From Candidatus Delongbacteria bacterium (GTDB lineage Bacteria; JAGOEH01): 50,599 bases of DNA. Every line of letters starts with the position of its first letter. Position 1 is the first letter of the stretch. Under the pieces are notes generated by a model. That model saw only the letters and a program-made list of their open reading frames with translations. It did not search any database and was not told the DNA's origin. This document shows, in pieces, positions 18,191 to 32,334 of the stretch. A program made the position numbers and the translations under genes. The stretch is taken from contig JAGOEH010000003.1 of the NCBI GenBank assembly GCA_017997825.1, positions 1 through 50,599 on the forward strand, in the 5' to 3' direction.

Positions 18191-18235
18191 AAAAAAAGGA
18201 TAATGTTCCACGTAGAACATTATCCTTTTTTTTTT
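18191..18235. terminator. bidirectional rho-independent terminator with a parS-like core
   Basis: Seven A residues plus GGATAATGTTC (18191-18208), loop CACGTA (18209-18214), GAACATTATCC (18215-18225), then ten T residues. This is an 18-base-pair stem followed by a T run on both strands. It ends ompH transcription 18 bases after its stop. The core TGTTCCACGTAGAACA (18204-18219) is a 13/16 match to the parS consensus TGTTTCACGTGAAACA and one base from the GTTCCACGTGGAAC form known from Pseudomonas. Confidence 0.85.
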
Positions 18236-21645: not shown

Positions 21646-22631
21646 ACCCTTTTACTTCAGCGATCCAATCTCAGGTCCGGTTGTTTTGGCTGGTCGGGGA
21701 TGAGCTGTTTCTAAAAAACCAGTTCATCTCTCAGGTCGAAAAGTTTTACCACCCCGACAGCCTTCAAGAGCAGCCTCTGCAACGGTTTTATGGGGATAGC
21801 TTCAGTTTGTCCCAGTTTATGAATGCCCTTTTTGATATGCCCTTGTTCGGTGGGTGTTCAATTATTATAGTCAAGAATCTGGAAAAGCTTAAAAAAAATG
21901 ATGCTACCGGGGTAAGAAAGGCGATTGGATCGATGCCTGGAGAAACGGTTTTGATTTTTGATTCAGAAAAACAGACCCAGGATGAACTGGGTAAGCTGAT
22001 CCATAAAAAGGGAATGGTTGTCGACTGTAAGCCGTTAACGGATCAAAAAGCCATTTCGTGGGTGATCGATTATGCCCGCGAGAACCATCACCGCATCATT
22101 CGTCGTGATGAAGCTCAACTCATGGTCGCCTTGATCGGGACAATGTTGAGTCAATTAGCATCGGAACTGGAGAAACTGGATCTCTACCTTCCACTAAATG
22201 ATTCAATCCGCCGAGAAGCAATCTTGAAAGTATGTAATGGAAACAGGAGTTTTGGTGTATTTGACCTTACTGATGCCGTGTTGGAGCGTGATCTTTACAA
22301 GGCGTTTCGTATTCTTCGCTATCTGATACAGGAAGGAACCCCGGCGCTGCAGATTGCGGCTCTGATTAACCGCTGTGTCACCAACGCGATTATACTCTAT
22401 GAACATGATCACGCCACTCACTCCATGCCAAAAGGGGCTCCAAGTCCTCTTCCTGCCTTTCTTCTACCCCGATATCGGAAGTTTATCGCCCCGTGGCCAT
22501 CGTTACAATCCTTATCCTCGTTGCTGGTCGGGGTGCTTGAGACCGATATAAAACTTAAATCATCCGGTAGTGATGGGCAAACTCGGTGGCTGGAAAAACT
22601 GATCATGCAGATAATCACCGGTCCATTATGA
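21642..22631 (+). CDS. holA: DNA polymerase III subunit delta
   Basis: 329 residues. Delta opens the beta sliding clamp as part of the clamp loader. Recognised by the N-terminal segment LFWLVGDELFLKNQFISQV, the FYGDSFSLSQFMNALFDMPLFGG region (clamp-binding motif LFDMPLFG), and the middle-domain pattern TMLSQLASELEKLDLYL. The clamp loader is poorly conserved in sequence, but length and motif order fit. It is the last gene of the wbqC-ruvB-queHA unit and overlaps the converging glycosyltransferase gene by 6 bases. Confidence 0.9.
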   Translation: MNPFTSAIQSQVRLFWLVGDELFLKNQFISQVEKFYHPDSLQEQPLQRFYGDSFSLSQFMNALFDMPLFGGCSIIIVKNLEKLKKNDATGVRKAIGSMPGETVLIFDSEKQTQDELGKLIHKKGMVVDCKPLTDQKAISWVIDYARENHHRIIRRDEAQLMVALIGTMLSQLASELEKLDLYLPLNDSIRREAILKVCNGNRSFGVFDLTDAVLERDLYKAFRILRYLIQEGTPALQIAALINRCVTNAIILYEHDHATHSMPKGAPSPLPAFLLPRYRKFIAPWPSLQSLSSLLVGVLETDIKLKSSGSDGQTRWLEKLIMQIITGPL

Positions 22632-23720
22632 ATTTGCGGGATGATGGATCTGTTGTAGTATATACTGTCGAACCTCGGTGATGGGGTGAGGAAGATCAGA
22701 CAGGTTGACAAAATAATGATTCTGGAATTGACGAGCCTGGCATTGGTTCATCTGCGAACGGGATCTGGCTATGACTAAACTATGCCGGCGAAATAGCGCG
22801 GATAAACTGAATCGATCATCCACGGTTGTGATAAAGAGTTCACTCAGTATGATAATGGCCAATGACTGCCAAAGTGGTGTCTCAGTCAGTATCTTCCATC
22901 TTGGATATTTACGGCTGATTGTCTCCTGCAAGGATGGATCATTACAGAATACCACGATAAAGGGATCGTGGTCATCAGGAATCAGGTTCAGGACAGGCAG
23001 GATTTGTGAAAAGGCGGGGATCATATCCTCATAATCCGGCTGCAGATTAAGGACGATTAGGGGTTGATGGGTTTGATAGCCAAGACTTATTAGAAATCGA
23101 GCGGCCTCTTTGGCAATCTCCCGTGGAAATGGATAACATAGGGGTTCCAATTGAAGCTGATGGTGATAGATGGTGTTGATTCGTGTTTCCAAGGATTGGA
23201 TAAGGTTTTCAGGCTTTACTTCTTGAGCGTGTAAACTAAGATTGTGATAGGTAGGATTCCGGTACTCAAAGGGATTGATTCTGATTTCAGCTGCGGAGTA
23301 AGAGGCGAGGAGTTCTGACAACTCGACGTCAAATGGATTCAGACTGAAAAAAATCGATGAGGCGATCGGTTGGAATCGTTGAAAAAAATCGGTCCACTCT
23401 TTGATCGAGATCGGGTCAATCGGAGGAAGCGAGATCACCTGATTAAAAAAAGGAAAAATTGAAGTGTACTCCCGTTGCGATTCAAAAGCAATCAGAATCC
23501 ATTGATTGTTGGAATAGAATCGGCGGAGCGATTTCAGTAACGGGGTGAGTGGGACGGACCAAAACGGGATCATAGGCAGAAAGAAGAGGATCTCACGGCG
23601 GGGTTGAAAAAGGGATTGAAGACTATATGCCTGAGAACTAAAATTTGGATTGAAGGAAAGACTACTGTATAAGCTACGGGATGCGCGATTGGATTTAAAG
23701 AGGGCGGAGAATGGGAGCAC
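22626..23720 (-). CDS. divergent heptosyltransferase-like (GT9) protein
   Basis: 364 residues, GTG start with AAGGA upstream. The arrangement fits GT9: an N-terminal Rossmann part (REILFFLPMIPFWSVPLTPLLKSLRR) and a C-terminal part with FLISLGYQTHQPLIVLNLQPDYEDM and IIILSELFITTVDDRFSLSALFRR (quoted in part: LFITTVDDRFSLSALFRR), where the family usually has a D-G/T-x-x-x-H motif for the nucleotide-sugar. The usual Gly-rich N-terminal motif is weak, so it may act on an unusual sugar or be non-catalytic. Downstream of rmlA in the same operon, consistent with envelope polysaccharide synthesis. Confidence 0.55.
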   Translation of the reverse strand: MLPFSALFKSNRASRSLYSSLSFNPNFSSQAYSLQSLFQPRREILFFLPMIPFWSVPLTPLLKSLRRFYSNNQWILIAFESQREYTSIFPFFNQVISLPPIDPISIKEWTDFFQRFQPIASSIFFSLNPFDVELSELLASYSAAEIRINPFEYRNPTYHNLSLHAQEVKPENLIQSLETRINTIYHHQLQLEPLCYPFPREIAKEAARFLISLGYQTHQPLIVLNLQPDYEDMIPAFSQILPVLNLIPDDHDPFIVVFCNDPSLQETISRKYPRWKILTETPLWQSLAIIILSELFITTVDDRFSLSALFRRHSLVIARSRSQMNQCQARQFQNHYFVNLSDLPHPITEVRQYILQQIHHPANS

Positions 23721-23723
23721 GTT

Positions 23724-24608
23724 CTATTCCTTGATGACTTTTTTAAGAAGTTGGGTATACTCGTTGTCGGGATAAGTATTCAAAAGAGCTTCGAGTTGAT
23801 CGTTATCGATAAAGTTCATTCGGTATGCCACCTCCTCCGGTGAGCCGATCAGAACCTCTTGGAGCGATTCCTGGAGGTAAATGAATTGGCGGACATGCTG
23901 GATGGCCTCCTTGGTTCCGGTATCGAACCAGGCAACCCCGCGGCGTAATTTAATGATAACGGCTTGCTGATCATGGAGGTAGCGATTGTTGAGATCGGTT
24001 ATTTCAAGCTCGCCGCGCGGGGATGGTGTTAGCCGAACTGAATGCTCGATGACGCGTGAATCATAGCAGTATAAACCGGTTACCGCGAAATGGGAAGGGG
24101 GGGGGGATGGCTTTTCGAGGATTTGAACCGGTGTGTCGTTGGAATCGAATTGGATTACACCAAAACGTTCGGGATTACTGACATGTTTAGCGAACAGCAA
24201 GGCCCCGCTTTTAAATTCTCGGATCGGCAGCAGGTAATCGATGGGACCAAAAAAGATGTTATCACCCAAGATAAGGGTGACACTATCAGTACCGATAAAA
24301 TCGATTGATGAGGTGAATCCGGGTGAAGAGGGAATAAAAAATGCTTGAGCGATACCGGCCGGACGGGGCTGAACGGCATAAGTAAGGGCGATTCCCCATT
24401 GATGACCGTTACCGAGACATCGCTGGTAAAGGCCAATGTCCCGGGGACTTGAGATTATCATAATATCCCGGATTCCGGCCAGCATCAACTGGGTAAGCGG
24501 ATAATAGATCATCGGTTTACCCCCGATATCCAACAGTTGTTTGGTAATGGGGAGGGTGGCAGGAAAAAGGCGGCTGCCGCTGCCTCCGGCCAGGATTATA
24601 CCTTTCAT
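23724..24608 (-). CDS. rfbA: glucose-1-phosphate thymidylyltransferase
   Basis: 294 residues. It joins dTTP and glucose-1-phosphate to dTDP-glucose, the first step to dTDP-sugars such as rhamnose. Motifs are the nucleotide-binding LAGGSGSRLFPAT, ITKQLLDIGGKPMIYYPL, LILGDNIFFG, and AVTGLYCYD; the C-terminus is typical of the short RmlA class. rfbB, rfbC and rfbD are not in the window. The coding strand carries a run of ten C residues (24106-24097) encoding SerProProPro between EKP and SHFAVTG; the frame is intact, so this allele encodes full-length protein, but the run is slippage-prone. ATGA overlap with the upstream membrane-protein gene. Confidence 0.95.
   Translation of the reverse strand: MKGIILAGGSGSRLFPATLPITKQLLDIGGKPMIYYPLTQLMLAGIRDIMIISSPRDIGLYQRCLGNGHQWGIALTYAVQPRPAGIAQAFFIPSSPGFTSSIDFIGTDSVTLILGDNIFFGPIDYLLPIREFKSGALLFAKHVSNPERFGVIQFDSNDTPVQILEKPSPPPSHFAVTGLYCYDSRVIEHSVRLTPSPRGELEITDLNNRYLHDQQAVIIKLRRGVAWFDTGTKEAIQHVRQFIYLQESLQEVLIGSPEEVAYRMNFIDNDQLEALLNTYPDNEYTQLLKKVIKE
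24097..24106 (-). repeat. C10 mononucleotide tract inside rfbA
   Basis: Ten consecutive G on the plus strand, C on the coding strand, around codons 168-171 of 294. The present length keeps the reading frame: conserved EKP on one side and AVTGLY on the other are in register with the family spacing. It is the longest G/C homopolymer I noticed in the window. Confidence 0.9.
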
Positions 24609-26137
24609 TCGCTGACTCCTTGCTTCGGTGAGGATGGATTGGAAAAGTAGTCAAGAAAACTGAGGATGCCGGGTCTCCATTCCTCAGGAATATAATCAAA
24701 ATTTCCACCGCGGTCAATGATTTCCCAAAAATCAGACTGGGTTTGGAGCAGCTCCTGAATAATGGAACGGATCCGATCAGGCGCTTCATCATGCATATCT
24801 AAGGCTATTTTATGAAACGAGGGGATATTTCCATGATAGTGATAGAATGCCGCTAATCGGATCTGAGCCTTTCTGACTCCGCGCAGAGAGCGGTCTTCTT
24901 CGGTGGGATCGGCCGGGCGATCGACCGTCAAAAAAATTTCCAAAAGGGACGGGGCTCCATTCCACTGTGTCTTTTCGGCTGCTATGCAGACATCCGCCAT
25001 ATCATGTGCGATCGTCTCAAGGATAAAACCAATTTTCTGCTGATAAAAAAGCAATCCATAGTATTTAAGATAATTAGCGATCTCTAAGACCATCTCTGAA
25101 AATGAAGAGTTCAGTAAGGCGATTGCCAGCAATTTGTATTGATAGGCAACATTATAAGCCGTTCTTATATCGTGCGTATTCAGGGTGAAACGAAGATAGG
25201 TATTGAAGTGTTTGATGCAAAGACGCAGTGCCGGTTCATCCTGTTGGCGGAGGGCTTTCTCGGCGATAAGGCGGCTGCACATCGCCAGCATGTTGTTCAA
25301 ATCTCGATTCTCATTTAAACAGTGGGTAAAAATAACTAAATAGTGCTTTAAAACCTTGTTTTCCATGAAAATCCGATGGTGCGAGATCTGGTTGATCTTG
25401 TCTGGGCTTAGCGCAACATAATCAGGATGAATGGTTTCGCTGTCAGGGATCGCGAAGAAGACGGATGGAAAGTTAGGTTTCAAATCAAAGCACGTTGTAA
25501 GTAATTCCTTGAGCGATAGCAAACAACGTAAGCCGACGGTGTTATCTTTTGTTTGAACGGCATTGAGGGCAATATCTGCAATCTGCTCAATGGCAATGAC
25601 AAAGGCAATGCGATGTCGGGTGATTCGATCAGGATCCTTGAGCTGAGGCAACTGATTGAGACGATGAATGAGGGATTCGGTCATTTTAACCACGACATTT
25701 TCCGGCTTTAAAAACCTGAAAATATAGGCAAAATAGGGAATGATGAGAATCAGGCAGATGCTGAGACCAATCAGGTTGAGGAAAGCGGCAAAATGGAGAG
25801 GATAGCCGCGGGCTGTAAGGTAATAAACCCAAAGACTATATAGACCGGTTAAAATGTAGAAACTGATCACCGATAGATTGACCCGATCCTCGATAAACAG
25901 GTCAATGATACGGCTACTGTAGCGGGTTGCGGCCAACTCGACGATAATTGCCACGACCGTAATCAGTATGGCTAGCAGACCGATTACAACCTCGTTAAAG
26001 GATGAGGTCGCTTCTAGAATCTGACTGGAATGAGGAAAAACAAAAATAGATGAAAATACAAATATAAATAATACTACAAGTACAATAAATAAAAATATAG
26101 ACAGTGAAGCAATGGATGCCAATCGATGTCGAGCCAT
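24605..26137 (-). CDS. multi-pass membrane protein with large cytoplasmic helical domain (DUF2254-like)
   Basis: 510 residues from ATG 26137, which follows the upstream stop by one base (TAGAATG); an earlier TTG 26185 would overlap that gene by 47 bases. Four N-terminal membrane helices are visible (IASLSIFLFIVLVVLFIFVF, VVIGLLAILITVVAIIVEL, ISFYILTGLYSLWVYYLTA, AFLNLIGLSICLILIIPYFA). Residues from about 175 on are soluble, with many helices and a C-terminal motif ending DFWEIIDRGGNFDYIPEEW. The layout resembles DUF2254-type membrane proteins, but I am not sure of the family. Function unknown. It sits between a receiver/HisKA protein and rfbA in one operon. Confidence 0.55.
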   Translation of the reverse strand: MARHRLASIASLSIFLFIVLVVLFIFVFSSIFVFPHSSQILEATSSFNEVVIGLLAILITVVAIIVELAATRYSSRIIDLFIEDRVNLSVISFYILTGLYSLWVYYLTARGYPLHFAAFLNLIGLSICLILIIPYFAYIFRFLKPENVVVKMTESLIHRLNQLPQLKDPDRITRHRIAFVIAIEQIADIALNAVQTKDNTVGLRCLLSLKELLTTCFDLKPNFPSVFFAIPDSETIHPDYVALSPDKINQISHHRIFMENKVLKHYLVIFTHCLNENRDLNNMLAMCSRLIAEKALRQQDEPALRLCIKHFNTYLRFTLNTHDIRTAYNVAYQYKLLAIALLNSSFSEMVLEIANYLKYYGLLFYQQKIGFILETIAHDMADVCIAAEKTQWNGAPSLLEIFLTVDRPADPTEEDRSLRGVRKAQIRLAAFYHYHGNIPSFHKIALDMHDEAPDRIRSIIQELLQTQSDFWEIIDRGGNFDYIPEEWRPGILSFLDYFSNPSSPKQGVSE

Positions 26138-26138
26138 T

Positions 26139-27185
26139 CTAATTAACCATTTTTCGGAGAGTATGATAGAGAGTTTCGTTATCAACCGGCATAGCCATGA
26201 TTTGATCCTGGATCCGTTTCAATCCGGGAGGAAATGTCAGAGGGGAAGGGGTGAAAAAAAGGACCTGAGATTGATTGGGGAACTCGTGGATTTGCTGTAA
26301 AAGGGAACTGAGAGAATCGGGAAAAGGGTATTCGAGGATTAGAAGGATAGGGGGCGAATGATCGAGTTGATGGGCTAAATTATGATCTTGGGTCAGGAGG
26401 TTGGTGAAAGGCAATCGTAAAAACTTAAGCTGATTGGAAACCTGATTGAATAAGGATAACGTGTCAATTCCCAATAAGATAGATGATTGATGCGATTGGG
26501 ATTGCATCAGGTGGTCCTTGGTGGCTGACTGCTGAATGTCGACAATAATGGTGGAATCGGTGTAGGATTTGGTGATCAGTTGCTTGATGTTCGAGAATTT
26601 TCCGATGAGATCATTGAGGCGGTTAGTTTGGACGGTGATTCTTTCTATGATCTCATCGTGACCATGCCGTTCATGATAGAGATCGATCAGCATCGTGATG
26701 GCGAAAAGTGGTTGTGCCATCTCATGGGCTACGGTACCCCCGAGTGCTATGGCGGTTTTAAGCTTTTCGTTTTCAATTTGCTGTTTCTGGAAGCAGCGTA
26801 GACTGATCTGATTTTTGACACGGCTGATCAGCTCGATTTTCTCGAAGGGTTTGTTGACAAAATCGATCGCTCCGAGTTCAAATGCCCTCTGCAGGTAGTC
26901 ACTTTCTGTTATTGCTGTCATGACAATAATGGAAATATATCTGATTTGTTGATTGCGGTTTAGATCTTCCAAAACGTCGAATCCATTCAGGATCGGCATG
27001 CGAATATCCAGTAGTATCAGTTCGGGAGGGTTGCTGTTGATCATATCCAATGCCTCTTTTCCATTGGCGGCCTCTTGGATCGTCAGTTCCAGGTTGGACA
27101 AATAATTCCGGGCCAGAATCCGGTTGGTGACCTCATCATCGACAATCAACATATGAATAGGGGTATTAGGCATCTGATCAATCAT
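26139..27185 (-). CDS. receiver domain plus HisKA-like domain, no ATPase domain
   Basis: 348 residues. The receiver (about 10-128) is complete: acidic pair IVDDE, phospho-acceptor Asp60 in LILLDIRMPILNG, Thr in IIVMTAI, Lys in FVNKPFE. A HisKA-like dimerisation segment follows with the H-box GGTVAHEMAQPLFAI (about 150-165) and its second helix (NRLNDLIGKFSNIKQL). A HATPase_c domain should come next, but no N, G1 or G2 box is seen. Instead residues 225-348 form an alternating strand/helix pattern (SSILLGIDTLSLF, PPILLILEYPF, SQVLFFTPSP) like a degenerate receiver. It may be a phosphotransfer or scaffold protein. First gene of the operon leading to rfbA. Confidence 0.7.
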   Translation of the reverse strand: MIDQMPNTPIHMLIVDDEVTNRILARNYLSNLELTIQEAANGKEALDMINSNPPELILLDIRMPILNGFDVLEDLNRNQQIRYISIIVMTAITESDYLQRAFELGAIDFVNKPFEKIELISRVKNQISLRCFQKQQIENEKLKTAIALGGTVAHEMAQPLFAITMLIDLYHERHGHDEIIERITVQTNRLNDLIGKFSNIKQLITKSYTDSTIIVDIQQSATKDHLMQSQSHQSSILLGIDTLSLFNQVSNQLKFLRLPFTNLLTQDHNLAHQLDHSPPILLILEYPFPDSLSSLLQQIHEFPNQSQVLFFTPSPLTFPPGLKRIQDQIMAMPVDNETLYHTLRKMVN

Positions 27186-31689: not shown

Positions 31690-32334
31690 TCAAAATTCCA
31701 TCGGTGTTGGTGAAAACCGAAGGATAGCCGGGTTAATGGTGTCTGCGGTCACGGGTCCGGATCGGATAATCCGGGGGGGGAAGCACTGCATATCCAATAC
31801 GGTGGAAGGCGCTTGGGCGGGGAGTGGAAGTGAATCGATGATCGTGACATCGGCTAATTGATTGCGGCTAAATTGAGTTGAAAGCAGGTTAAGATCGTAC
31901 AATTCGGGCTTTCCATGCTGGTTGGCGCTGGTGGCCGTAATTGGAAAATCAATTAGATCGAACATCGAGATCCAAAATGGATAAGGGGATTGGCGCATGG
32001 CCACTCCGGAATTTTGAGCGGTCAATATATCCGGCAGGTTGTTCCGTCGGGGGAAAACACAGGATAAGGGGCCGGGCCAAAAATGCCGAATGAACTCGAT
32101 CTGCCAAGGTTCAATAACGGCATATCGAGCCGCCATTTCGATATCCCGGACTAAAATACCGCTGGGAATTCCGGGCCGCTTTTTTATCTGAAAAATCCGC
32201 TGAATTGGAATGGGATTGGTGGCGTCAGCGGCGAAAATAAAACAGGTTTCGCTGGGTGCCAGCAGGATTCCGCCATGCCTTAAAATGGCAGCGGAAGCAG
32301 CGAGATCAGGATTGATGGTTTCCGGTTGAGACAT
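31690..32334 (-). CDS. Sua5/YciO/YrdC family protein (threonylcarbamoyl-AMP synthase-like)
   Basis: 214 residues. The YrdC fold is recognisable by the KR pair in IFQIKKRPGIPSGILV, FWPGPLSCVF, SGVAMRQSPYP and TATSANQHGKPE. TsaC/Sua5 enzymes make threonylcarbamoyl-AMP for the t6A modification of tRNA. The usual YPTDTVYGLG near the N-terminus reads APSETCFIFAADA, so the Thr and the Tyr-Gly-Leu are changed. It may be a paralogue with altered activity, like YciO, rather than the main TsaC. It overlaps lgt by 29 bases. Confidence 0.8.
   Translation of the reverse strand: MSQPETINPDLAASAAILRHGGILLAPSETCFIFAADATNPIPIQRIFQIKKRPGIPSGILVRDIEMAARYAVIEPWQIEFIRHFWPGPLSCVFPRRNNLPDILTAQNSGVAMRQSPYPFWISMFDLIDFPITATSANQHGKPELYDLNLLSTQFSRNQLADVTIIDSLPLPAQAPSTVLDMQCFPPRIIRSGPVTADTINPAILRFSPTPMEF

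Follow-up and report, generated by a model that had tools for sequence, protein, structure and literature searches.

A homopolymer of ten cytosines inside a gene for a sugar-nucleotide enzyme raises the question of whether it is a slipped-strand switch selected for phase variation of the cell surface or a run arising by chance from base composition and codon use. It lies in the window, i.e., the whole stretch of 50,599 nucleotides of Candidatus Delongbacteria DNA that was analyzed, in which the following features bear on the question:

24097 to 24106, minus strand: homopolymer of ten C (ten G on the plus strand), codons TCC CCC CCC CCT, Ser-Pro-Pro-Pro
23724 to 24608, minus strand: intact rmlA/rfbA-like gene, glucose-1-phosphate thymidylyltransferase family, 294 amino acids, Pfam NTP_transferase match at 2.5e-52
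24605 to 26185, minus strand: upstream gene for a membrane protein with a DUF2254 match, overlapping the rmlA start by 4 bp
22626 to 23720, minus strand: downstream open reading frame (ORF), 364 amino acids, with a GTG start 3 bp past the rmlA stop
31773 to 31780, minus strand: C8 in the coding strand, inside a 214-residue ORF; next after the C10 in length among the window's G/C runs, a background example

The ten-base C homopolymer that an earlier note had reported in the rfbA coding sequence is exactly as described, and it is the longest G/C run within the window, the runner-up being the G8 at 31773–31780. Its first base is nucleotide 503 of the gene (codon 168), with residues 168–171 affected, and the codon context CCA TCC CCC CCC CCT TCC reads Pro-Ser-Pro-Pro-Pro-Ser, immediately preceded by the EK of the EKP motif of RmlA. 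Simulated tract changes of −2, −1, +1, and +2 bases give proteins of 181, 175, 182, and 176 residues, respectively, as against the full-length 294, which places the truncation formerly put near residue 170 of 294 correctly to within about twelve residues. Ten is also the in-frame length for the 294-residue product and the ORF is intact, in keeping with the ON state ascribed to it in that note. A homopolymer of another kind, a run of ten T at 18226–18235 of the window, lies between an OmpH/Skp gene and a WbqC-family gene.

The properties of the C10 tract invite comparison with the poly-G/C translational phase-variation loci known from Campylobacter jejuni and Neisseria meningitidis, which likewise combine an unbroken G/C homopolymer of ten in an ORF with truncation upon a one-base slip, in a gene that could influence a surface glycan. 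An uninterrupted slippage-prone repeat within the ORF and the loss of the full-length product upon a slip of one or two bases are both found at 24097–24106. In Campylobacter, G/C tracts of at least 8 switch genes (PMC6321876), and deep sequencing in Neisseria found tracts of at least 8 to be variable (PMC5084427). As C10 is as long as these mutable tracts, some slippage is plausible; the tract is probably prone to it to some degree, as would be any other G/C run of its length, and frameshifted cells may arise on rare occasions. A low rate of frameshift or length variation at the tract is, by this analogy, a plausible expectation, and the mutability of such tracts elsewhere counts against a reading by chance in that C10 may really switch. 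The corresponding alternative is that slipped-strand mispairing at C10 toggles dTDP-glucose synthesis and the surface glycan heritably and reversibly, with the assembled state being ON. The length and position of the tract fit such a translational switch and provide the positive support for it, and tracts of equal length act as gene switches in other bacteria (PMC6321876, PMC5084427); weighed against the observations below, we regard selection as a switch as unlikely.

The gene itself can be assigned with some precision. A family match and catalytic motifs over the full length mark its product as an RmlA-family nucleotidyltransferase: it shares GGSGxRL, KQLL, LGDNIF, EKP, TGLY, and AWxDTGT with the solved RmlA structures 1h5r/1h5s and 1fxo, which are also its best structural relatives (E about 1e-85, full-length alignment). 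Unlike solved RmlA, it has an 8-residue insertion around residues 97–105, and its score against the best NCBIfam model, TIGR01207 (RmlA), is 342.4 bits, narrowly short of the equivalog cut-off of 360.65 bits; for this reason, the gene is named here as RmlA-family and not as a confirmed equivalog. With this qualification, its earlier identification as a surface-sugar enzyme gene (rfbA/RmlA) is upheld, in that it is a sugar-nucleotide gene of the RmlA family, and the product is probably a functional enzyme. A search of its own genome returned it as the sole strong RmlA match, the next among the matches listed having an E of about 1e-5; hence, the gene is single-copy in the assembly, a point in favor of a phase-variable rmlA.

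The genomic setting speaks against the switch. No polysaccharide cluster is visible among the genes flanking rmlA. The DUF2254 gene and rmlA, given their 4-bp overlap, form an apparent operon, and a response-regulator gene was found upstream in the neighborhood; the 364-residue ORF at 22626–23720, on which an rmlA frameshift could exert polarity, found no match in Pfam or NCBIfam. RmlC and RmlD exceed their cut-offs, both on a contig other than that of rmlA (C99), where rmlD, a CDP-glucose 4,6-dehydratase gene, and rmlC stand grouped together (L133, 168–3452). For RmlB, none of the matches in the 93%-complete assembly passes the cut-off (best 154.7 bits versus 365.1), so that a complete rhamnose pathway cannot be claimed for this assembly. 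The absence of a visible glycan cluster and the incompletely evidenced pathway both weaken the notion of a toggled surface polysaccharide.

An over-representation of such tracts in the genome, or their retention in orthologues, would support a phase-variation locus without strictly defining one. Pattern searches of the assembly (3.58 Mb, 357 contigs) returned 158 G/C runs of at least 7, 48 of at least 8, 18 of at least 9, and 10 of at least 10 bases. Stretches within 213 bp of contig ends account for 4.3% of the genome and contain eight of the ten runs in the last class (seven of nine distinct ones; P below 1e-8), among them every run of 11–15; the contigs with such end-proximal runs of 10–15 are C18, C28, C195, C199, C209, C233, C320, and C339. 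One such place was assembled twice, at the ends of C209 and C339, which have one G11 in common: ahead of the tract 130 of 133 positions are identical, and beyond it divergence grows. Reads would lose quality past a long G/C run, and contigs would break there; to judge from this one comparable pair, the runs at contig ends are likely assembly breaks at G/C homopolymers, although length heterogeneity in the population might be an alternative cause of the breaks. Since runs of 10–15 are in surplus only at contig ends, a tract excess indicative of a phasome was rejected.

The same observations raise the issue of whether the true length of the tract at 24097–24106 is other than ten, through an error of assembly or sequencing in a genome whose long G/C tracts, hard to sequence, gather at contig ends, with degraded sequence past the one comparable tract. 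Against this, 24 kb separate the tract from the nearest contig end, and the reading frame continues unbroken on either side of it with normal RmlA spacing, so that any error in length would need to have preserved the frame; such an error is decidedly improbable.

Off the contig ends, the runs behave as a chance process would have them. Interior runs of length 7, 8, 9, and 10 number 110, 28, 8, and 2 (those of length 7 being included without a filter for contig-end proximity), as against 110.6, 27.9, 7.1, and 1.8 expected from a fitted geometric decay. The two interior runs of at least 10 compare with genome-wide expectations of 0.9–2.5: Markov nulls of orders 2–5 give 0.9–1.7, and a null from synonymous-codon resampling gives 2.5. 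These nulls were built from a 305-kb sample whose regions, picked by contig and mostly from long ones, some with sugar-nucleotide genes, were not strictly random; several avoided known runs of at least 8, which may slightly lower the Markov nulls and leaves the whole-genome counts unaffected. In this genome CCC makes up 33% of Pro codons and TCC 30% of Ser codons, and with the RmlA protein kept fixed, codons chosen at their ordinary frequencies produce a C run of at least 10 with a probability of 0.039. By the run counts, the nulls, and this codon-choice figure together, C10 is unremarkable for its genome.

In Campylobacter, G/C tract lengths peak at 9–10 bases (53% at 9 and 26% at 10), C. jejuni has 18–39 phase-variable genes per strain, and tract lengths differ between isolates (PMC6321876); here, the interior runs decay geometrically from 7, with two reaching 10. 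Neither a genome-wide excess of interior long G/C tracts, such as would mark a set of phase-variable loci, nor a length mode at 9–10 among the interior runs was found, and both absences tell against a phase-variable rmlA. The same Campylobacter study notes that neutral drift among synonymous codons can create such tracts and that a tract of low mutability is maybe inefficient for genuine switching (PMC6321876).

The genes that carry the other interior runs provide a mixed picture. The sole other interior run of ten is a C10 in the Pro-Pro-Pro stretch of a 1447-residue protein (contig C210; L066, 3198–3207) with FG-GAP, Big_5, and FlgD_ig matches, which on its domains is probably secreted or surface-bound; the gene for an FG-GAP protein next after it has a C9 run. 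Each of the two interior C10 runs thus falls in an envelope-related gene, a point against the reading by chance. Runs of 8–9 are found in genes for PKD proteins, FG-GAP proteins, and an outer-membrane transport protein, and likewise in dnaK, grpE, a NuoF-like gene, and genes for an M16 peptidase, a LigT phosphoesterase, and an amino-acid permease, with no clustering in envelope-glycan genes seen in the genome.

Comparison with homologues adds a further consideration. In 31 RmlA and related homologues from other genomes, all of 50% or less identity to the rmlA product, the tract is absent, with at most 4 consecutive C at the site. The usual peptide there is EKPxxPKS, and unlike these relatives, which mostly have xxPKS, the present protein has SPPPS in the loop after EKP, i.e., C10 encodes a variable loop. 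A search for closer relatives in the contigs of other genomes returned two Acidimicrobiales homologues at about 46%, which lack the tract, and weaker ones. A motif search of 386 genomes found a tract of at least eight C at an EKP-like DNA motif in ten genomes, and among the eight of these ten whose loci were inspected, the sole RmlA was the window's own gene. As far as can be seen among homologues no more than 50% identical, the tract appears confined to this genome, a result compatible both with switching within the species and with its absence. The relatives in the whole-genome comparison share the domain only, none being of the same phylum, which makes the source lineage of the window a poorly sampled one. 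The lack of the tract in these homologues and of any other RmlA among the inspected matches argues against a phase-variable rmlA, and a literature search, conducted partly at the level of titles and abstracts, found no paper on such an rmlA tract.

Taken together, the locus is best read as an intact, single-copy RmlA-family gene in which C10 is a chance product of composition and codon use, without selection as a switch, to which we assign a probability of roughly 0.78. The variable loop EKP-SPPP-SHFAV, encoded by TCC CCC CCC CCT, would yield the ten C, and composition and codon use would produce such a run about once or twice per genome. The tract thus appears not to have been selected as a switch, and the phase variation of a surface polysaccharide proposed in the earlier note finds no support in a tract excess, a mode at 9–10, or a homologue with the tract; the missing cluster, the sub-threshold RmlB, and the runs of 8–9 outside envelope genes detract further from it.

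An effect might instead be exerted at the level of translation. The translation of Pro-Pro-Pro depends on EF-P, and runs of CCC are prone to frameshifting; with SPPP encoded by TCC CCC CCC CCT, ribosomes could stall or shift frame here, and the output of RmlA could come to depend on EF-P or on tRNA-Pro methylation. The shifted frames, however, stop within about 15 codons and give no extended product, Pro-Pro-Pro is no rarity, with 8 occurrences in 216 sampled ORFs, and the tract is unconserved in homologues; this possibility strikes us as very remote.

Were the tract a switch after all, its position at the first committed dTDP-sugar step would mean that all dTDP-derived surface sugars are toggled together, in contrast to classical phase-variation systems that switch one glycosyltransferase, and the range of homopolymer phase variation would widen to include an enzyme of precursor supply, in a lineage that is poorly sampled. 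On the reading by chance preferred here, the locus illustrates that a lone long homopolymer in a surface-sugar gene is to be compared with the run-length decay of its own genome before any claim of a switch is made, and that in draft assemblies long G/C runs close to contig ends are best set aside. A related caution for homopolymer counts in draft genomes comes from another genome of the comparison (G041), where a contig starts with at least 71 C (contig C2, 1–71), an evident assembly artefact.
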